Of a stretch of DNA of 57,560 nucleotides, positions 15,422-24,279 are shown piece by piece. The position numbers and the translations under genes were made by a program. Each line of letters opens with the position of its first letter. Position 1 is the first letter of the stretch. Source of the DNA: Nitrosomonas sp. (GTDB lineage: Bacteria > Pseudomonadota > Gammaproteobacteria > Burkholderiales > Nitrosomonadaceae); NCBI GenBank assembly GCA_020890945.1, contig JAJHPK010000090.1, forward strand, positions 1 through 57,560, in the 5' to 3' direction. The notes under the pieces were generated by a model. It ran no database searches. It saw nothing but the letters and a program-made list of their open reading frames with translations, and had not been told where the DNA came from.

Positions 15422-15937
15422 TTGATTTTCAACTATGTAAGCTCAATTAGGAATGAAATAACCTTGAACGAAAATATCACTCAAATCAGTACCTATTTGG
15501 AGATGGTGCCATCTTGGGCAATTGCTTTATTTACTTTTGCGATAGTGGTCGGCATTTTTATAGAAATAATCAATCGCAAACGGCGCTTTTATGCAATTGA
15601 TAATTTTCGTAATACTATTGAAACAGAATTTGCGGCTTTGTATCCGAACCATAAAGTTTGGCCGAAGAACATTCAAGAATTTTTTGCTGCGCGCATGCCT
15701 GAAATGCACCATAACTTTGAAGTCTTGCGTTTATTCATTCCGCAAAAGCGTTTGCTGGAATACAACACCGATTGGAACAATTTTCGTGATTTTTGCCGCA
15801 ATATTACCGACGAACAATGTGAAGCTAACGCATATAGACATCAAAAAACTGACCATGATCAAGAAGTGCGCACTGAAGATCCGAAAGTAGTTTTTCACCG
15901 ATTAATCGACAATTTGTTAAAACACACGCATATATAA
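15422..15937 (+). CDS. Hypothetical single-pass membrane protein at the head of the lipid locus
   Basis: 171 aa from a TTG at 15422, or 144 aa from the ATG at 15503; the choice is uncertain. One strong transmembrane helix (about residues 31-48, IALFTFAIVVGIFIEII) is followed by a basic stretch NRKRRF and a soluble domain. That domain is rich in aromatic and charged residues (WPKNIQEFFAARMPEMHHNFEVLR) with two Cys near FCRNITDEQCE. Family not recognised. It ends only 48 bases before the bCerS-like acyltransferase, so it may be part of that operon. Its role is unknown. Confidence 0.7.
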   Translation: MIFNYVSSIRNEITLNENITQISTYLEMVPSWAIALFTFAIVVGIFIEIINRKRRFYAIDNFRNTIETEFAALYPNHKVWPKNIQEFFAARMPEMHHNFEVLRLFIPQKRLLEYNTDWNNFRDFCRNITDEQCEANAYRHQKTDHDQEVRTEDPKVVFHRLIDNLLKHTHI

Positions 15938-15985
15938 ATTTCATTTGAAACGCACTACACTTCGCTTTAATTATATTTTGCTGTG

Positions 15986-17137
15986 ATGTCAAACCAATCC
16001 AAGCTAAGCAGCTCTGCGGTAGTTGTTCGTCCTGCCATGACCTACCATGAGGTAGGTAAGTTTATTGGTATCCCCTGGTTGATTTACGCAAACGATCCGA
16101 TGTGGGTGCCGCCGTTACGGTTGGAACGTCGATTTCATTTATCCCATTTCAATCCCTATTCTAAACACGGTGACTGGCAACTCTGGATCGCGTACCAAGA
16201 CGGACAACCGGTCGGACGTATTAGTGCGCAGATCGACAAGTTGCATCGCGAACGCTATGGTTTCGATACTGGTCATTTTGGTTTCATGGAATGCATTGAT
16301 AATCACGAGGTTTTTGCAGCATTGGCGTTGCATGCGGAAGCTTGGCTAGCTGCTCGCGGCGTTCGTCATATCACCGGACCCTATAATTTTTCCATTAATC
16401 AAGAAGTCGGAATTTTGGTAGCGGGTTTCGATACGCCGCCAATGATCATGATGACGCATTCAGCGCCTTGGTATGGAAAATTATTAGAAAGCCAGGGATA
16501 TCTTCCCGCTAAAGATATGTTTGCATACAAAATTAACACAGCATTTGAATTTCCTCCGGTCATGCAAGCGGTGATCAAACGGTTTTCGAACAAAATAAAA
16601 CTGCGTACGTTGAGGCGGAATCAACTGGCCCAAGAAATGGAAATTCTTAGGGATATTTTTAATGATGCTTGGGTGGATAATTGGAGATTTATCCCATTCA
16701 CGGAAGAAGAATTCGCTGAGTTGGGCAGTACGCTGAAATGGTTATTGCCCGATGAGTTTGTGCAAATTGCCGAAGTCGATGGCGTGCCAGCAGCATTCAT
16801 GGTGGGATTACCAAATATCAACGAAGCGTTATCTGAAATGAATGGTAATTTATTCCCTTTTGGTTGGATAAAGCTTATTAAACGCATCAAAAATAATGAA
16901 TTCACGAGTGGCCGCATTCCATTGATGGGAATTCGCAAACAGTATCAAAATACGCCATTGGGACTGGCTTTGGCCTGTTTGATCATTGATGCGCCGCGTC
17001 AGGCAGGAATCGCGTATGGTATCAAAGAAGTCGAGTTATCCTGGATACTGGAAGATAATTTACCCATGCGTCATATTCTCAAAAGTATTGGCAGTCAGGA
17101 ATACAAGCGGTATCGTATTTATCAGAAAACTCTGTGA
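15986..17137 (+). CDS. Bacterial ceramide synthase-like / YghO-type N-acyltransferase
   Basis: 383 aa of the YghO / BcerS-like family (GNAT fold), often misnamed dATP pyrophosphohydrolase. Characterised members include the Caulobacter bacterial ceramide synthase, which N-acylates a sphingoid base. Recognisable segments are YANDPMWVPPLRLERR near residue 35, QPVGRISAQIDKLH, HFGFMECIDNHEVF, GPYNFSINQEVGILVAGFD near 132 and the C-terminal hallmark ELSWILEDNLPMRHILKSIG with YKRYRIYQKTL. Two tandem GNAT-like halves are apparent. I start at the ATG 15986, though a GTG lies at 15983. The stop overlaps the next start in GTGA, so acyltransferase and nucleotidyltransferase are coupled. The family call is firm; the acceptor (sphingoid base or other amine/alcohol) is unknown, and no serine palmitoyltransferase is in the window. 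Confidence 0.85.
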   Translation: MSNQSKLSSSAVVVRPAMTYHEVGKFIGIPWLIYANDPMWVPPLRLERRFHLSHFNPYSKHGDWQLWIAYQDGQPVGRISAQIDKLHRERYGFDTGHFGFMECIDNHEVFAALALHAEAWLAARGVRHITGPYNFSINQEVGILVAGFDTPPMIMMTHSAPWYGKLLESQGYLPAKDMFAYKINTAFEFPPVMQAVIKRFSNKIKLRTLRRNQLAQEMEILRDIFNDAWVDNWRFIPFTEEEFAELGSTLKWLLPDEFVQIAEVDGVPAAFMVGLPNINEALSEMNGNLFPFGWIKLIKRIKNNEFTSGRIPLMGIRKQYQNTPLGLALACLIIDAPRQAGIAYGIKEVELSWILEDNLPMRHILKSIGSQEYKRYRIYQKTL

Positions 17138-17952
17138 TCACGCAAAATAACAATAACGATAAGCAATTTGCTGCCATCGTGTTAGCGGCTGACCGTACCG
17201 GCAAAGATCCAATCACCCAGTACACGAATGCTGCTTGCAAAGCCTTTGCTAGTGTTGATGGTATCCCTATGGTGATTCGTGTTTTAAATGCTCTGCAAGC
17301 CTGTCCGCAAATTTCATCGATTATCCTATGCGGTCCTCCAGAAACCCTTCATCATCATTGTCCTGAATTAAAACAGCGAATTGACTCAGGACAAGTGACT
17401 TGGATTCCCAATTTGGATTCACCTAGCCGCAGCGCAGATAGCGGTTTGAAACAAATACCGGAGAACGTATCGGTATTAGTCACCACGGCTGATCATGCCT
17501 TATTGACATCACAAATCGTACAGCAGTTTTTGCAGCAATCGATCGCGACAACGGCAGATGCAACCGTTGGAATTGTGCGGCAAGAACAAATTGCCGCTGC
17601 GTTTCCCGATTCGAAGCGCACAGTAATACGCTTACGAGATGGGGGATTTTGTGGTTGTAATTTATTTGCTTTCACACCAAACGGACGCAGTCTCGTTCAA
17701 TTCTGGCGACAGGCTGAAGATTTACGCAAAAAACCGTGGCAATTGATTGCACGAGTGCTGGGTTTTAAAACAGTATTTGCCTATTTGTTGGGAATCTTGA
17801 CCCGAGAACAAGGAGTGGCGGCTGTGTCACAAAAATCGGGCGTGAATATTCAAACAATTGAATTGGATGATCCCCGTGCCGGAGTCGATGTGGATAAAGT
17901 GGAAGATTTGAGGCTTGCCGAAGCCATTCTCAAAAATGAAAAACAAACGTAA
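17134..17952 (+). CDS. MobA-like nucleotidyltransferase family protein
   Basis: 272 aa with a Rossmann-like nucleotidyltransferase fold. The usual LAGG-x-S-x-RMG start is replaced by VLAADRTGKDP, with ACKAFASVDGIPMVIRVLNAL following. The metal-binding acidic site is VLVTTADHALL near residue 117-122, and a late acidic DDPRAGVDVDKVED resembles the MobA/IspD C-terminal motif. It starts at GTG overlapping the acyltransferase stop. Enzymes with this fold transfer CMP, UMP, AMP or GMP to a phosphate; here it could build a CDP-linked head group for the phosphatidyltransferase downstream (inference). It is unlikely to be the molybdenum-cofactor enzyme because the P-loop differs and no mo-genes are near. 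Confidence 0.75.
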   Translation: MITQNNNNDKQFAAIVLAADRTGKDPITQYTNAACKAFASVDGIPMVIRVLNALQACPQISSIILCGPPETLHHHCPELKQRIDSGQVTWIPNLDSPSRSADSGLKQIPENVSVLVTTADHALLTSQIVQQFLQQSIATTADATVGIVRQEQIAAAFPDSKRTVIRLRDGGFCGCNLFAFTPNGRSLVQFWRQAEDLRKKPWQLIARVLGFKTVFAYLLGILTREQGVAAVSQKSGVNIQTIELDDPRAGVDVDKVEDLRLAEAILKNEKQT

Positions 17953-18030
17953 TTGGTACAAGAATAGTTGGAGTTGTTAAAAAATTAACCAATATCTGTA
18001 GATTAGCTTACTGATTGATACTCTCGATGC

Positions 18031-19110
18031 ATGAAACTGTTTGACCGCTATATCGCACGTGAAATATTGCTGCCTTTTATGGTGGTCATACTTATTCTGG
18101 CTGGATTATTTGCCAGTTTCAGCAGCGCACGGCTGCTGGCAGGGGCTGTGACGGAATCGCTTGGAATTGCTGCGCTGTTTAAATTGGTTTTTCTCAAGAC
18201 GCTGATTTCTTTGGAAGTGCTGATCGCCATTGCACTATATATTTCCGTCATTATCGGACTGGGGCGGTTGAATAAAGATCACGAACTGACGGTGCTTCGC
18301 TCGATCGGTATCAGCAATACGCGAATCGTGCTGGTTGTTTTGGCAGTGGCCATTCCGATTGGAATTATCAGTGGCATTTTGTCATCTTATGTTCGACCTT
18401 GGGCTTACGCAGAAAGCTATTTACTCGATGCGCAAGCCGAGGCCGAACTCAATATCAATCGCTTTCAAGCAGGCCGTTTTCACGGTAGCGAACGTTCCGG
18501 TCGGGTAATTTATGTCGGGGAAAAAAACGATACCGACAAGAATATGTCGCAGGTTTTTCACTATGTTCAAAATGCGCATACCAGTGAAATCGTCATTGCT
18601 AAACATGCCTATCAAGTGCAACCCACTTCATCGGATCAAAAACCTTACATACAGTTGAGCGATGGTGTCATCTATAAACTCAGCAAAGATGCCAGCGTGG
18701 ATGATGTGATACGGTTTGAAAATATGACCTATTACATCGATAATGATTATGTATTGAGTTACCGCCGCAAAGCCGCTGCTACCCGTGACTTGTGGAAATC
18801 GGATCAACCACCCGACATTGCTGAGTTTCAGTGGCGCGTTTCACGTCCGCTAGCTACCATTTTGTTAGCACTGATCGCGGTAACTTTTATTCGCATTTCA
18901 CCGCGCCAAGACAAAACGGACAGCACTTATCTAGTCGCAGCGTTGCTGTTTGCGGGCTACTATAATTTGAGTGGATTAGCAAAAAATTGGGTCGCAAATG
19001 GTGTGGTTGGAAGCATTCCAGGAGTATGGTGGTTAGATGGTTTGATGATCATAGGGCTTGGATGCTATGCGTTTTTTGCGGGTTATCGTCAGCTTAGAGG
19101 TCGAACATGA
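18031..19110 (+). CDS. lptF: LptF-like permease (YjgP/YjgQ family)
   Basis: 359 aa. Three N-terminal transmembrane helices (about residues 12-35, 55-80, 100-120), a periplasmic beta-jellyroll region (about 135-265) and three C-terminal helices form the typical LptF/G layout. Family segments include DHELTVLRSIGISNTRI in the cytoplasmic coupling region and FQWRVSRPLATILLALIAV followed by RISPRQDK. LptF and LptG are the membrane subunits of the LptB2FGC extractor that passes LPS to the periplasmic bridge. The stop overlaps lptG in ATGA. The usual lptFG neighbour pepA is absent; instead the pair sits between nucleotidyltransferase and phospholipid enzymes. It may therefore be the canonical copy or a paralogue serving another lipid. 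Confidence 0.85.
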   Translation: MKLFDRYIAREILLPFMVVILILAGLFASFSSARLLAGAVTESLGIAALFKLVFLKTLISLEVLIAIALYISVIIGLGRLNKDHELTVLRSIGISNTRIVLVVLAVAIPIGIISGILSSYVRPWAYAESYLLDAQAEAELNINRFQAGRFHGSERSGRVIYVGEKNDTDKNMSQVFHYVQNAHTSEIVIAKHAYQVQPTSSDQKPYIQLSDGVIYKLSKDASVDDVIRFENMTYYIDNDYVLSYRRKAAATRDLWKSDQPPDIAEFQWRVSRPLATILLALIAVTFIRISPRQDKTDSTYLVAALLFAGYYNLSGLAKNWVANGVVGSIPGVWWLDGLMIIGLGCYAFFAGYRQLRGRT

Positions 19111-20168
19111 TCCTTTACCGTTACGTGCTCTTCCAAGTGCTATTGGGATTTTTAATTGCTACCGCAATTTTATTGCCGCTATTTAGTTTTTTTGATCTGC
19201 TCGATCAACTGGATGATGTCGGAAAAGGCACCTATCGTACCAAAGATGCTTTTTTTTATACCGCGATGCTGATGCCAAGGCGGTTAATACAAATAGCACC
19301 ATTTGTTGCTTTATTGGGTACTGTCATTGCGCTCGGTAAACTGGCCGTTCATTCTGAACTGATTGCAATGCGTGTGTCCGGTCTTTCGCCCAGCCGTATT
19401 AGTTTGGCGCCGTTAAATGCAGGTGCGTTGATGTTATTGAGCATTGTCGCGTTGGAACAATTTGTTGCACCGCAATTGCAACAGAAAGCCATCACCTATC
19501 GTGCGCTTGCGCTCAATTTGAGCGCGGAATTAGGAAGGAATTTGGGAATTTGGACGCGCAACGAACATAACATCATACGTATTGGCAAAGTACTGCATGC
19601 AAAATATGCGACCGGCATAGAAATTTTGCAATTTTCTCCAAACGGTCATTTGATTTCGCATATTTTAGCTGAAGCAGCGAACATCATCGATGATGATATT
19701 TGGGAGTTGCAAAATGTAACAACGCGGACTTTCAAAGAGGATGAAATGTCTGTAGCGCATTTAAATTCTCTGAATTGGCGTTCTTTTTTACGGCCGGACG
19801 ACATACGCACGTTGACCAAACCGCCAGAAAGCTTATCGCCCATCGAACTGGCGAAACATACTGAATTTTTACGCACCACAGGGCAAGATTTTGATTCTTA
19901 CCAACTGGCGTTATGGCGTAAATTGGGTAGTATCTTGATGACGGTCGCGATGGTATTGCTATCCATTCCGTTCGTATTTGGTTCTATTCGCACTGGTTTA
20001 AGTAACAAGCTGGTTTTTGCTGCGTTGATCGGCATAGGAGTTTATTTGCTCGACCAAATCATCGCGAATGCCGGATTGATTTTAAATATCAATCCAGCAC
20101 TGATTGCTTTTGCTCCGAGCATTACCATGATTATTGTTGCAAATGTGTGGCTACGAAGAGTTTTCTAA
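19107..20168 (+). CDS. lptG: LptG-like permease (YjgP/YjgQ family)
   Basis: 353 aa with the same six-helix plus jellyroll plan. Hallmarks of LptG are FSFFDLLDQLDDVGKGTY near residue 27-44, MLMPRRLIQIAPFVALLGT and the coupling segment HSELIAMRVSGLSPSRI. The C-terminal helices follow FDSYQLALWRKLGSILMTV. It pairs with LptF across the LptB ATPase dimer, and no ATPase is encoded here. It overlaps lptF by 4 bases. A 116-base gap precedes the next gene, so a separate promoter for the downstream phospholipid genes is possible. Assignment to LptG over LptF rests on the DDVGKGxY and PRR segments. Confidence 0.88.
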   Translation: MILYRYVLFQVLLGFLIATAILLPLFSFFDLLDQLDDVGKGTYRTKDAFFYTAMLMPRRLIQIAPFVALLGTVIALGKLAVHSELIAMRVSGLSPSRISLAPLNAGALMLLSIVALEQFVAPQLQQKAITYRALALNLSAELGRNLGIWTRNEHNIIRIGKVLHAKYATGIEILQFSPNGHLISHILAEAANIIDDDIWELQNVTTRTFKEDEMSVAHLNSLNWRSFLRPDDIRTLTKPPESLSPIELAKHTEFLRTTGQDFDSYQLALWRKLGSILMTVAMVLLSIPFVFGSIRTGLSNKLVFAALIGIGVYLLDQIIANAGLILNINPALIAFAPSITMIIVANVWLRRVF

Positions 20169-20284
20169 TGTAGAAGCAAACAGATAGCTTCTGTTACTAT
20201 GCAGGCTTACCATTTTTAATAATGATAATTTTTGTGATTTTAATGTGTTAATGTGAGTTCTTAAATTAATTCAATGAAAACAGT

Positions 20285-21514
20285 ATGCTAAAGGTTATCT
20301 ACATTTATCTATTTGGTAACGGTGAACCCAAAATTTGGGGACTAACCGGGCAGGAGCGTTTACGACGCATGCTCACAGCGCATTCCGACATTGTATTTGT
20401 GGAAAATGTTGAAAAAATACCTTCTGGCGCGACTACTCTATTTCTAAATGCTAATTTTTTGTTTGATGGCCGCGTTCTTTCAGCTTTACTAGGGTTGGAT
20501 AAAAAAGCGGCGCTGTATAGTGCCAGTGGTTCTCCGGCTGCGATACGAACGGATGGCGATTATGCGCAACAACTGGTTAGAAATCTCAGTAAAGATTCTG
20601 AGCAAAATTACAAATTTGTACCAATAGCCATTCCACATATCGGTTTAGATGATTTACACATTGATTATCAGCAAAATCTGAAAAAGAAAGACCCTCCTTA
20701 TATTCTGCCTATCAGTGAAGCAAACCGTGAGTTACTCGAGCAGGAATTATTTTCTGGCTCCTATAAAGGGGTAACCGATTTCATCACCAAATGGGTATGG
20801 CCAAAACCGGCCTACTGGGCGACGCATTATTGCGTGCGTAAAGGTTGGTCGCCGAATCACGTTACGTATCTCAGCGTAGTGCTCGCCATAACCGCAGGCC
20901 TAGCGTTTTGGGCTGGTTTTTTTGGCATCGGTTTGTTGATGGGATGGTTTATGACTTTCTTGGATACCGTCGATGGCAAATTGGCTCGCGTCACAGTTAC
21001 TTCCAGCCGATTCGGTGATGTCATGGATCATGGTTTGGATATTATTCACCCACCGTTATGGTATCTGGCTTGGGGAGCTGGCTTGATCGGTACACCAGAC
21101 GCGATTCCCGGTTTTGAAATCTTGATGTTCTTGATGTTCCTCGGTTATATCGGTGGAAGATTATGCGAAGGTGTTTTTCAGTTTTCTTTGGCGTCGTTTG
21201 ATATTTTTATCTGGCGCCGACTGGATTCATTTAATCGATTGATTACCGCACGGCGAAATCCAAATTTACTGCTACTGACTTTTTCATGGCTGATTGGACA
21301 ACCAGCATTGGGGCTTGCATTAGTGGTCGTATGGCATTTAATTTCAACCGGTGTATTGATTTGGCGTTTGATGGTTGCGTGGCTGACGAAACATAAAGAA
21401 GGAACGTTACGGTCTTGGTTGCAAGATATTGATCCTGCGCGTGACCGTGATCAATTGGCGGTGATGATTTTTACCCGTGCTCCGCTGGATTTAAGAAGTT
21501 TATCGTCGAAATAA
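20285..21514 (+). CDS. CDP-alcohol phosphatidyltransferase with N-terminal nucleotidyltransferase-like domain
   Basis: 409 aa, membrane enzyme joining a CDP-activated substrate to an alcohol with release of CMP. The catalytic signature D-xx-DG-xx-AR-x8-G-xxx-D-xxx-D is complete at about residues 227-252 (DTVDGKLARV to DHGLD), followed by further hydrophobic helices. Residues 1-150 form a soluble alpha/beta region (WGLTGQERLRRML, LFLNANFLFDGRVL, then EQELFSGSYKGVTDF). It resembles the cytidylyltransferase half of bifunctional IPCT/DIPP synthases but lacks an LxGGxGTR loop, so it is probably not catalytic. It is followed within 5 bases by the lipid kinase gene. The acceptor alcohol cannot be predicted. 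Confidence 0.88.
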   Translation: MLKVIYIYLFGNGEPKIWGLTGQERLRRMLTAHSDIVFVENVEKIPSGATTLFLNANFLFDGRVLSALLGLDKKAALYSASGSPAAIRTDGDYAQQLVRNLSKDSEQNYKFVPIAIPHIGLDDLHIDYQQNLKKKDPPYILPISEANRELLEQELFSGSYKGVTDFITKWVWPKPAYWATHYCVRKGWSPNHVTYLSVVLAITAGLAFWAGFFGIGLLMGWFMTFLDTVDGKLARVTVTSSRFGDVMDHGLDIIHPPLWYLAWGAGLIGTPDAIPGFEILMFLMFLGYIGGRLCEGVFQFSLASFDIFIWRRLDSFNRLITARRNPNLLLLTFSWLIGQPALGLALVVVWHLISTGVLIWRLMVAWLTKHKEGTLRSWLQDIDPARDRDQLAVMIFTRAPLDLRSLSSK

Positions 21515-21519
21515 TCGCA

Positions 21520-22557
21520 TTGATAGCACTTGACTCCGCCAATCCATCCTTGCTGTCGCAACGGATTGACCGATTAACAGCAGGTTCGGCTAAAATCGGT
21601 TGCCTATTCAATCCAAACGGTGGACAAGCACGCAAAAAATTACCCGAAATCCGGCAGGTGTTAGCACAAATTCCCGGCATCATGGTGCGTGAAGGCACTG
21701 ATGCCGCGACGTTTAAAACTGCGCTGGAATCTTTGCTGCAAGCTGAAATCGATTTATTAGTGATTGTCGCCGGTGACGGCACTACTCATGCGATTCTTGC
21801 GCACTTATTCCGAATTTTTCCTGCTACTGATAATTGGCCTGTTTTAATGATTGCACCGGGTGGCACGACCAACATGACGCCGTTCGATCTCGGCATCACT
21901 GGAAAACCAGACCAAGTATTGCGTCGCCTGCAAACCTATCTAACTAGTAGGCCATCGTCAATCCAATTGCAAAAACGCTCGGCATTTTGTATCCAGCAAG
22001 CCGGTATCGAAAAAATGTATGGCATGTTTTTCGCCGTGGGTTTGGTAGCGCGTGGCGTAAAATTTTCCAGAAGCCCGGTTAAACAAGTGGGCATCACAGG
22101 TAATAGCTATACCTTCTTGATCATGCTGCATTCTGTGATAACCGCATTAACCGGTATTTTCACAGGACGGCATCACGCAGATTGGAAACCGGTCACGATG
22201 ACACTCACTGAAACGGATGGAAAAATACACCAAGGTACTTTCTTGTTTGCTTTGATTAGCGCATCGCACCGGATATTGTTGAATATGCGCCCTTATTGGG
22301 GAAAAGAAGCGCTGCCTTTACATGTCACCTGGGTCAAACAACAACCCAAGCGGCTTTGGCGTTCGTTGTGGCCCTTATTAACGGGGCAAGGCGATAAACT
22401 AACAGAATCCGATGGCTATTTCAGCCACAATATGCAGGAATTATCGCTTTCTCTGGATGATGAATACGTGGTCGACGGGGAATTGTATCGTTCCAATCAC
22501 GCCAATGAGCCTTTGCGCATCTCCGCGACCGCTCCAATTACGTTTTTAGTGGTATAA
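21520..22557 (+). CDS. Diacylglycerol/sphingosine kinase-like lipid kinase (LCB5/DagK domain)
   Basis: 345 aa, DAGK catalytic fold. The ATP-binding motif is VAGDGTTH at about residues 83-90, where the common GGDGT reads AGDGT. NPNGGQARKK near 28 and APGGTTNMTPFDLG near 116 complete the site. The C-terminal beta-sandwich ends in DEYVVDGELY, the substrate-side D-G-E motif of the family. It probably transfers phosphate from ATP to the free hydroxyl of a diacylglycerol, ceramide or related lipid. It starts at TTG 5 bases after the preceding stop; no in-frame ATG fits. The next gene begins 7 bases after its stop, so the three phospholipid genes form one transcription unit. Confidence 0.85.
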   Translation: MIALDSANPSLLSQRIDRLTAGSAKIGCLFNPNGGQARKKLPEIRQVLAQIPGIMVREGTDAATFKTALESLLQAEIDLLVIVAGDGTTHAILAHLFRIFPATDNWPVLMIAPGGTTNMTPFDLGITGKPDQVLRRLQTYLTSRPSSIQLQKRSAFCIQQAGIEKMYGMFFAVGLVARGVKFSRSPVKQVGITGNSYTFLIMLHSVITALTGIFTGRHHADWKPVTMTLTETDGKIHQGTFLFALISASHRILLNMRPYWGKEALPLHVTWVKQQPKRLWRSLWPLLTGQGDKLTESDGYFSHNMQELSLSLDDEYVVDGELYRSNHANEPLRISATAPITFLVV

Positions 22558-22564
22558 CACAGGC

Positions 22565-23551
22565 ATGAAAACGAATAACCTAACAAACAATAATGAATTG
22601 CCAACCGAGTTGATCGACGAAGTGGCCGCGCAATGCAATACGCCGGTTTCTTCGGAGTTAGACTCGTTCGTCGCCGCTTTAACAGAACGCTTCGCCAATT
22701 CGCTGGATGCCGTGCTGTTATATGGTTCGTGCTTGCATTCCCATTGTAGTTTGGAAGAAGGTATCGTCGATTTGTATGTATTGGTGGATGAATACCGTAA
22801 CGCGTACCCGCAGCAACGATTGCTGGCGTTGGGTAACGAATGGCTGCCACCGAATGTGTTTTATATCGAAGTACGGCACCAAGAAAAAACCTTGCGCGCG
22901 AAATACGCGGTCATTTCCACGGTGGATTTTGAATACAGCGCTCAGTTCTGGTTTCATTCCTATATCTGGGCGCGTTTTGCGCAACCGTCACGGCTATTAT
23001 TTGCACGCGATGATACGATTCGTTCGAGCATTTATCATGCGATTACGCATTCGATCATTACCTTCCTAAAATCCGGTATTGCTGCAATTGAAGCGGGCGT
23101 ATTGAGCGTTGAAGAAATCTGGACACGGTGTTTGATGCTGACTTACGCCTCTGAATTACGCGCGGAGAAAGAAACCCGAGCACGTCATCTGGCGCAAACC
23201 AATCTCATCGCATTCACCCGTTTAACACAAGCGGCAAGCCCAATGCTTACAACCCTCATACAGCAAAAAGAAGGTGCTGAAGAGAATCTTTACCAATGTT
23301 TAACGACCCCCGCAATGCAACGACAAGCACAATGGCGTTGGCGGTTGCGCCGTTGGCAAGGCCGGATTTTATCGCTGCTGCGGTTAGGGAAAGCGGTGTT
23401 TACGTTCGCCAACGGCGTGGAATATGCCGTTTGGAAAATCGAGCGGCATACCGGCGTGCGTGTTGAAATCACGCCGATGCTGCGCCGTCACCCGATTCTG
23501 CTGGGATTGGTCGCGTTGCGTCAATTGCTGCGCCGTGGCGTGTTGCGTTAA
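22565..23551 (+). CDS. Tam41-like phosphatidate cytidylyltransferase (predicted CDP-lipid synthase)
   Basis: 328 aa. It resembles the mitochondrial CDP-diacylglycerol synthase Tam41/Mmp37, which is soluble or peripheral and unrelated to membrane CdsA. Visible family features are the pol-beta-type nucleotide-binding YGS at residues 53-55, metal-binding aspartates at D69 (VDLYVLVDE) and D75, PNVFYIEVRH near 98, KYAVIS at 113-118, and an SAQFWFHSYIWARFAQPSRL segment near 125-140. A winged-helix-like Arg-rich C-terminal half follows. Gene order kinase, cytidylyltransferase, CDP-alcohol transferase fits a complete route from lipid alcohol to phospholipid. I recognise the family by motif order only; overall similarity was not computed. 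Confidence 0.72.
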   Translation: MKTNNLTNNNELPTELIDEVAAQCNTPVSSELDSFVAALTERFANSLDAVLLYGSCLHSHCSLEEGIVDLYVLVDEYRNAYPQQRLLALGNEWLPPNVFYIEVRHQEKTLRAKYAVISTVDFEYSAQFWFHSYIWARFAQPSRLLFARDDTIRSSIYHAITHSIITFLKSGIAAIEAGVLSVEEIWTRCLMLTYASELRAEKETRARHLAQTNLIAFTRLTQAASPMLTTLIQQKEGAEENLYQCLTTPAMQRQAQWRWRLRRWQGRILSLLRLGKAVFTFANGVEYAVWKIERHTGVRVEITPMLRRHPILLGLVALRQLLRRGVLR

Positions 23552-23581: not shown

Positions 23582-23631
23582 GATTATTTTGCGTATACAA
23601 TTTTTAGATACATTTTTTGGGAGATAACTCT

Positions 23632-24279
23632 ATGAATCGTTCGTATCGTTTATTGATGGTTACCTTTATTGTCCTGTTAAGCGCTTGTTCCACCATGTAT
23701 TTGGAAGGTTTGGAAAAAATCGGCATTCCCAAACGCGACGTGATGGTGCATCGCGTCGAGAAAGCGCGCGACACGCAAGGAGAAACCAAAGAACAATTCA
23801 AATCGGCGTTGGAACAATTTACCGCCGCCACCAATTTCAAAGGTGGTGATTTGGAAGACACCTATAAACGCTTGAACGATGCGTATGAAGAAAGCAAAGG
23901 TAAAGCCGACGAAGTAAAAGGCCGCATTGCTGATATCGAAAGCGTGTCGGAAGCGCTATTTGCCGAATGGAGGGAAGAGATTACCCAATACAGCAATCAG
24001 AGCATGAAACAAAGCAGTCAGCAAAAACTCGTGGCAACGCAAGCGCATTACAAACAGTTGATCGCATCGATGAAACAAGCCGAAGCGAAAATCGAACCGG
24101 TGCTGCGGGTATTCCAAGACCAAGTCATGTTCCTCAAACATAACCTAAATGCCCGCGCGATTGCATCGCTCAAAGGTGAACTGGGCAACATCCGTTCCGA
24201 TGTTTCCACCTTGGTTGCATCGATGGAAAAATCCATCAACGAAGCGAATTCGTTTATTAAGACGATGGAAAATAAGTAG
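23632..24279 (+). CDS. DUF2959 family lipoprotein
   Basis: 215 aa from the ATG at 23632, which sits behind a GGGAGA ribosome-binding site. The signal peptide ends in the lipobox LLSAC at about residue 15-19, so the mature protein is lipid-anchored. The rest is predicted as long alpha-helical coiled coil (EKARDTQGETKEQFKSALEQ, RLNDAYEESKGKADEVKGRI, KLVATQAHYKQLIASMKQAE), as in DUF2959. The function of the family is unknown. It follows the lipid locus by 80 bases in the same direction, with a possible weak hairpin between; membership in that locus is uncertain. Confidence 0.85.
   Translation: MNRSYRLLMVTFIVLLSACSTMYLEGLEKIGIPKRDVMVHRVEKARDTQGETKEQFKSALEQFTAATNFKGGDLEDTYKRLNDAYEESKGKADEVKGRIADIESVSEALFAEWREEITQYSNQSMKQSSQQKLVATQAHYKQLIASMKQAEAKIEPVLRVFQDQVMFLKHNLNARAIASLKGELGNIRSDVSTLVASMEKSINEANSFIKTMENK

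Follow-up and report, generated by a model that had tools for sequence, protein, structure and literature searches.

The seven-gene locus and its products

The window analysed here is a stretch of 57,560 nucleotides of Nitrosomonas sp. DNA (contig JAJHPK010000090.1 of assembly GCA_020890945.1), and makes up an entire contig (C51) in a genome of 2.68 Mb. It contains seven consecutive plus-strand open reading frames (ORFs; 15983–23551 in the ORF listing of the window) that encode lipid-modifying enzymes and an LptF/LptG permease pair, and that very probably constitute a ceramide phosphoglycerate (CPG) locus of the Caulobacter type. The gene order is as described in an earlier note on this DNA, as are the GTGA overlap of the first two genes (17134–17137), the ATGA overlap of lptF and lptG (19107–19110), and the gaps of 5 and 7 bases that precede the last two genes; lptF and the cytidine diphosphate (CDP)-alcohol gene follow larger gaps, of 78 and 116 bases, respectively.

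The first gene (15983–17137) encodes a bCerS/YghO-type N-acyltransferase, the putative ceramide synthase and counterpart of CC_1154. This protein has no Pfam match, no informative NCBIfam match, and nothing better than E 0.06 among PDB sequences; it is identified by 47.2% and 48.5% identity to YghO-annotated proteins on plasmid-collection records, together with a profile match in the same clusters. The second gene (17134–17952) encodes a MobA/CofC-like nucleotidyltransferase (Pfam NTP_transf_3, E 2e-13), which corresponds to CC_1153 in the excerpts of the Caulobacter study drawn on here (PMC11324152). LptF (18031–19110) and LptG (19107–20168) match Pfam LptF_LptG (E 6.9e-65 and 6.8e-67) and pass the NCBIfam cut-offs for their respective families (TIGR04407, 313 vs. 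230 bits; TIGR04408, 317 vs. 240 bits); trees place both in a beta/gamma sphingolipid-cluster clade, as do conserved residues for LptF (see below). The fifth gene (20285–21514) encodes a CpgA-like CDP-alcohol phosphotransferase (CDP-OH_P_transf, E 2.4e-8; CC_1159 counterpart), modelled (pLDDT 82.2, pTM 0.78) as an N-terminal nucleotidyltransferase-like domain joined to a membrane CDP-alcohol domain; AF2299 is the nearest fold, and IPCT-DIPPS is matched as well. It is followed by the gene for a CpgB-like ceramide kinase (21520–22557; DAGK_cat, E 4.5e-13; CC_1160 counterpart).

The last gene (22565–23551) encodes a CpgC-like cytidylyltransferase of predicted Tam41 fold, the proposed CDP-ceramide synthase and counterpart of CC_1161. 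The protein has no Pfam match at E ≤ 1, and a relative scores 21.8 bits against Tam41 (PF09139), under the gathering score of 24. With its structural model (40 sequences, mean pLDDT 86.3, pTM 0.86), a fold search returns Tam41 first (6ig4, E 3.7e-9; 7ecd, E 2.7e-8; 6ig2 also among the best), at TM values of 0.46–0.51 by query and 0.52–0.60 by target. A PDB sequence search at E ≤ 1 matches nothing but two Tam41 entries (E 0.03 and 0.04), and YGS and D motifs are conserved.

A scan of named records returned 193 relatives; locus counts are based on the best 80 of these, mostly Nitrosomonas, Nitrosospira, and Nitrosovibrio records. Exactly seven genes in order are present in 45/80 loci and six genes, without the CDP-alcohol gene, in 10/80; the other 25/80 differ from both, many of them ending at contig ends. 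This retention of gene order in the Nitrosomonadaceae argues against the chance neighborhood that the earlier note would have accepted had the genes failed to co-occur in relatives. The same order is found in two genomes of another family of the class (L346 and L347). Kinase and last gene form a single ORF in 17/80 loci, which points to consecutive steps. After fused proteins had been seen in the first set, the kinase and Tam41 profiles were rebuilt from members shorter than 430 aa; the rebuilt profiles cover the Nitrosomonadaceae loci, the 20 bCerS regions, and L090, L091, L220, L297, and L298, while L206–L219 and L221–L225 are annotated with the first set.

At the genome level, the last gene is present in 58/61 genomes of the genus, including 50/50 of those with completeness of 90% or more and contamination of 5% or less, in 8/200 genomes of the order (six of them of the genus), and in 33/396 genomes of a phylum sample (three of the genus). 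LptFG and the last gene lie no more than 10 kb apart on one contig in 50/57 genus genomes that show both, and a class-wide search detected bCerS in 33/370 genomes. A single-contig genome (G218) also has a second LptF and a MobA-like copy away from the main cluster (L092:4127–6114). Two neighbors of the window locus are kept beside it in many Nitrosomonas: a DUF2959 gene downstream (23617–24279), and a small plus-strand ORF upstream (15422–15937), a possible member of the locus, for which family profile searches gave no family above cut-off.

Ceramide backbone genes and proposed pathway

The earlier note left the lipid backbone open, having seen no serine palmitoyltransferase gene in the window, and proposed a search for spt and cerR homologues elsewhere in the genome. 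The gene is indeed absent from the window; both homologues are found on contig C35, in an aasR–cerR–acpR–spt operon in which spt scores 580.7 bits against the serine palmitoyltransferase model NF047599 (cut-off 500) and acpR, cerR, and aasR are matched by Pfam. The genome thus encodes a ceramide pathway, and gene content decides the question of the backbone in favor of ceramide. In addition, contig C57 carries a CpgD-like gene that is 42% and 47% identical to the copies inside the clusters of G360 (a genome of the same class) and Roseomonas, these copies rather than CCNA_01210 being the ones compared. It adjoins genes of the HIT, fatty acid desaturase, and histidine phosphatase families (L354:3472–6502), and its desaturase-family neighbor may correspond to the ceramide hydroxylase CC_0202. 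For N. eutropha, the excerpted text reports at least 13 of 17 Caulobacter orthologues in three regions (PMC11324152), and the C35 and C57 stretches may be the other two of these.

In the proposed pathway, AasR, AcpR, Spt, and CerR would make the sphingoid base, which bCerS would acylate to ceramide; the CpgB-like kinase would phosphorylate ceramide to ceramide-1-phosphate, which the CpgC-like Tam41-fold enzyme would activate, most likely as CDP-ceramide. The latter product is supported by the predicted fold and by the kinase fusion, and is an activated lipid that we did not find reported in the literature examined. Phosphoglycerate groups would then be added, the second by the CpgA-like CDP-alcohol enzyme using CDP-glycerate from the CpgD-like gene product. 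This agrees with Caulobacter, in which CpgA comes in at a late step, probably with CDP-glycerate supplied by CpgD, according to the sections of the study drawn on here (PMC11324152). Finally, LptB2FG would lift the anionic lipid from the inner membrane, and an ordinary LptC–LptA bridge would move it on. The suggestion in the earlier note that a single locus, comprising a lipid kinase, CDP activation, CDP-alcohol transfer, and LptFG, assembles and probably exports a special lipid, anionic and amide-linked (sphingo-), is supported.

The same ceramide and CDP-activation chemistry might instead yield a lipid with a head group other than phosphoglycerate in the Nitrosomonadaceae, such as a sugar or another alcohol. 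This would be consistent with the nearest folds of the CDP-alcohol protein being inositol-type synthases, and with the absence of its gene from ten loci (L141, L143, L145, L146, L149, L151, L158, L162, L168, and L175; 8/10 titled Nitrosospira or Nitrosovibrio), five of which were measured and have an LptG–kinase gap of 160–289 bases; in such loci CPG2 may not be made, and the pathway may stop at CPG. A PMT_2 glycosyltransferase gene near the cluster in L173 and L174 would also be compatible with a different head group. Phosphoglycerate is favored by the CpgD-like gene on C57 and by the expectation, in the excerpted text, that N. eutropha has both CPG and CPG2 (PMC11324152), such that we regard another head group as unlikely.

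LpxC, the LptFG pair, and probable replacement of lipopolysaccharide

LpxC, searched as PF03331, has no match in 8/8 Nitrosomonas genomes (four of them single contigs), and was not found in 17/17 further genomes of the genus or in 17/17 genomes from which named loci come, among them N. europaea and N. eutropha. The total is 0/42 Nitrosomonadaceae genome handles, which represent at most 37 distinct genomes because five named genomes have the same coordinates as handles. LpxC is present in 6/6 other genomes of the order, comprising 4/4 without the locus and 2/2 with an alpha-type cluster. In N. europaea, only lpxK of nine lipid A genes is reported, and is discussed together with genome reduction, in the part of that account used here (PMC3087551).

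The number of LptF/G genes follows the same division. Exactly two LptF/G matches are found in 51/61 genus genomes; of the ten others, two (this genome and G218) carry a third copy of full length, and the remainder have fragments, matches under the cut-off, or too few matches. Among the first 18 genomes with the last gene from outside the genus, eight are LpxC-positive with four or five LptF/G matches, and ten are LpxC-negative with two, except for G370 with three. A prediction made beforehand was borne out in the next 14 such genomes, in which three LpxC-positives have four LptF/G matches and 11 LpxC-negatives have two. Across all 32, 11/11 LpxC-positives have four or five matches, and 20/21 LpxC-negatives have two and one has three. 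The six order genomes without the locus have a single LptFG pair each. Because 14/21 LpxC-negatives belong to one family, genome-level counts overstate independence; by family code, five LpxC-positive and seven LpxC-negative families (Nitrosomonas counted) do not overlap (Fisher p 0.0013). The earlier note envisaged a second, special lipid; an extra lipid beside a normal lipopolysaccharide (LPS) outer membrane is not supported, given that LpxC was not found and that most of the Nitrosomonas genomes searched have no LptFG pair other than this one.

The trees included 12 pairs from fetched class regions and that of G360, with E. coli K-12, E. coli PN43, two Pseudomonas plasmids, and Roseomonas then added as named anchors; rows were thinned by hand (11 names, then eight in the last tree). 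The labels Burkholderiales, beta/gamma, and alpha follow presumed GTDB ranks and stand, respectively, for genomes of the window's order, for others of its class, and for those of another class of the phylum; the placement of Roseomonas (Alphaproteobacteria) with the alpha set and of E. coli and Pseudomonas with the beta/gamma set agrees with this. One clade unites the Nitrosomonadaceae copies with the beta/gamma cluster copies (support 100/100 for LptF and 100/97 for LptG, both starred), so that the window pair lies in a cluster clade and not with LPS-type copies. The LPS-type copies fall outside this clade without forming one of their own; in the last tree, E. coli K-12 and G360 stand apart with weak support. 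The alpha cluster copies make up a further group (LptF, 100/100, starred; LptG, 85/88, not starred), and the window pair, instead of sharing descent with alphaproteobacterial LptF2/LptG2, groups with beta/gamma LPS-type copies (LptF, 100/98; LptG, 100/99; both starred). A single clade of all cluster copies is rejected for LptF, the only protein tested, by an approximately unbiased test (p 0.007), for a group named after the tree had been seen and with long branches present. The first trees had suggested that a native LPS-type LptFG was kept and moved into the cluster; this was rejected when denser class sampling gave a separate cluster clade. G360, which is LpxC-positive, has bCerS, the MobA-like gene, LptF, and LptG beside aasR and cerR, as well as a separate LPS-type pair. 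In two genomes of the order (family f6), cluster copies of alpha type are present in addition to the genome's own LPS-type pair.

LptF also differs in sequence between the two kinds of copy. A column scan of ten LPS-type beta/gamma copies against 27 cluster-clade copies (two of these being the unlinked C64 and G218 copies), for positions conserved in one set and lost in the other, either way, gave 16 columns, including E. coli positions 212, 214, 223, and 230; positions 212 and 230 had been looked at beforehand, and the scan is independent of that choice. R212 is present in 10/10 LPS-type vs. 0/27 cluster-clade copies, R223 in 9/10 (plus one K) vs. 1/27, and Y230 in 9/10 vs. 0/27; the window LptF lacks all three of these LPS hand-off residues. 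R223 and Y230 lie in the LPS site at the LptF–LptC interface, with R212 adjacent, and E. coli can bypass LptC through substitutions at R212, according to the excerpts used here (PMC9972910 for both; PMC4986956 for the latter). A corresponding LptG signature of LPS-binding residues was rejected, as K34, K40, and others vary among LPS-type copies too.

The rest of the Lpt bridge looks ordinary. This genome has one LptC (PF06835), on contig C92, in an apparent rpoN–lptB–lptA–lptC run with a nadA-like gene upstream instead of kdsC/kdsD; apart from LptC, these names are presumed from gene length, order, and sequence start.

On one alternative reading, the window LptFG is an ordinary LPS-type exporter that lies by chance among sphingolipid genes, and it exports LPS or a glycolipid related to it. 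Both proteins score above the NCBIfam LPS-exporter cut-offs, lptC, lptA, and lptB are in the usual order, and lpxK is reported in N. europaea in the part of the source used (PMC3087551). Against this stand the absence of LpxC matches from all 42 handles, the position of the pair in the cluster clade, the loss of the LPS hand-off residues, and the second pair that is kept by genomes having both LpxC and the cluster; we consider an ordinary LPS exporter highly improbable. It is also very unlikely, if marginally less so, that the sphingolipid is made and reaches the outer membrane by another route while LptFG carries something else. In favor of such a route, the enzymes occur without LptFG in the stretch in 6/20 regions of each of two region sets, and the Caulobacter study places transport outside its scope by its own statement in the excerpted text (PMC11324152); LptF/G copy number nevertheless tracks both LpxC and the locus, and there are LptFG clades specific to the cluster.

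We weigh the reading in which the window encodes the decoration and export half of the CPG/CPG2 pathway in an organism that has lost lipid A against several points that count against it. Among the lipid A genes the search covered LpxC, the Nitrosomonas lipid is deduced from gene content, and the window genes were matched to Caulobacter by family, fold, and the copies of other genomes rather than directly. LptF and LptG still pass LPS-exporter models, and the residue signature holds for beta/gamma proteins only, alpha LPS-type LptF being mixed (R212 3/6, Y230 3/6, R223 0/6). Linkage is incomplete: LptFG and the last gene are on different contigs in five of 57 genus genomes and far apart on one contig in two (G226 and G249), making 7/57; LptF and LptG are found in 14/20 other-family regions near the last gene and in 14/20 fetched bCerS regions of the class, with none in the stretch in the remaining six of each; and the CDP-alcohol gene is missing from 10/80 loci. 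Lastly, contig C64 of this genome carries a third LptF, which is unpaired.

The C64 LptF (L028:1055–3877) lies beside a PMT_2 glycosyltransferase that is weakly similar to ArnT, and other neighbors are presumably NeuB-like and NeuA/KdsC-like. This glycosyltransferase, which L173 and L174 also have close to their sphingolipid cluster, might be a modifying enzyme for the exported lipid. That the lone LptF is the missing LPS-type copy was rejected, since it groups inside the Nitrosomonadaceae and lacks the same LptF residues.

On balance, it is quite probable that the seven genes make up the half of the CPG/CPG2 pathway that decorates and exports the lipid, that lipid A has been lost, and that LptFG serves a sphingolipid that probably replaces LPS; we consider replacement of LPS by the sphingolipid likely. 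The Nitrosomonadaceae would have lost lipid A synthesis and the LPS-type LptFG, leaving the window LptFG to serve a sphingolipid that probably stands in for outer-leaflet LPS. A broader view is offered tentatively, as one slightly more likely to be wrong than right: that the Nitrosomonadaceae are naturally LPS-free, with an anionic-sphingolipid outer leaflet and an Lpt system that no longer handles LPS; that a dedicated LptFG arose at least twice (alpha; beta/gamma), as a mobile module that let lineages discard lipid A and the LPS-type pair; and that the Tam41-fold enzyme makes CDP-ceramide. If true, ammonia oxidizers, a large and ecologically important group, would be a natural experiment in replacing LPS, and the LpxC–LptFG copy-number rule would provide a genome-level test of which lineages have replaced it. 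Among the open-licence papers listed by literature searches, we found none linking Nitrosomonas, lipid A loss, sphingolipids, and Lpt, nor any that connects lipid A loss with this LptFG as the sole pair, describes its beta/gamma descent, or notes the altered LptF residues.

Comparison with known systems

The earlier note presented the locus as new; it matches the gene set of CC_1152–CC_1165 in the Caulobacter CPG/CPG2 locus, and orthologues in N. eutropha are already reported in the excerpted text (PMC11324152). The C. crescentus locus (CC_1152–CC_1168; CpgA–D, CerS, LptC2/F2/G2) has in common with the window a ceramide synthase, a MobA/CofC-like nucleotidyltransferase, a CDP-alcohol enzyme, a ceramide kinase, a CDP-diacylglycerol-synthase-like enzyme, and an LptF/LptG pair. 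The Caulobacter genes are needed for the ceramide phosphoglycerates CPG and CPG2, and LptF and LptG are there second versions, as far as the excerpts of that study go (PMC11324152); activities of CpgB (ceramide kinase) and CpgD, and mutant lipid phenotypes, are published. Unlike in Caulobacter, LpxC was not found here, this genome has no other LptFG pair, and the one it has descends from the beta/gamma and not the alphaproteobacterial line. CC_1168 (LptC2), CC_1167, CC_1166 (flippase), and CC_1158 (phosphoesterase) are lacking in N. eutropha, according to the same excerpts (PMC11324152).

The E. coli LPS exporter LptB2FGC comprises the same permease families, and its lptC–lptA–lptB order is kept on C92. 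It differs in that the window pair lies in a separate clade and has lost LptF R212, R223, and Y230, and in that LpxC was not found.

Modules on a Pseudomonas plasmid and in E. coli PN43 combine spt–acpR–cerR–aasR, a gene of YghO type, and an lptFG pair (P. veronii by tree). In Pseudomonas sp. BYT-5 the kinase and last gene adjoin the module, which is not seen in the E. coli PN43 stretch. The former (plasmid pBYT5-2, NZ_CP097491.1; L352) carries ceramide genes, lptFG, the kinase, and a hypothetical gene in the place of the last gene, and is a predicted conjugative plasmid, so that the ceramide/lptFG module can probably move between strains. The latter (NZ_MG591698.1; L351), which is listed as a plasmid but carries the glc genes, has cluster-clade lptF and lptG beside spt–acpR–cerR–aasR and yghO.

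Tam41, the mitochondrial and bacterial CDP-diacylglycerol synthase, shares its fold, as predicted, with the last window protein, for which 6ig4, 6ig2, and 7ecd are the best PDB matches. At about 13% identity, the window protein misses the Tam41 Pfam model, and its proposed substrate is ceramide-1-phosphate.

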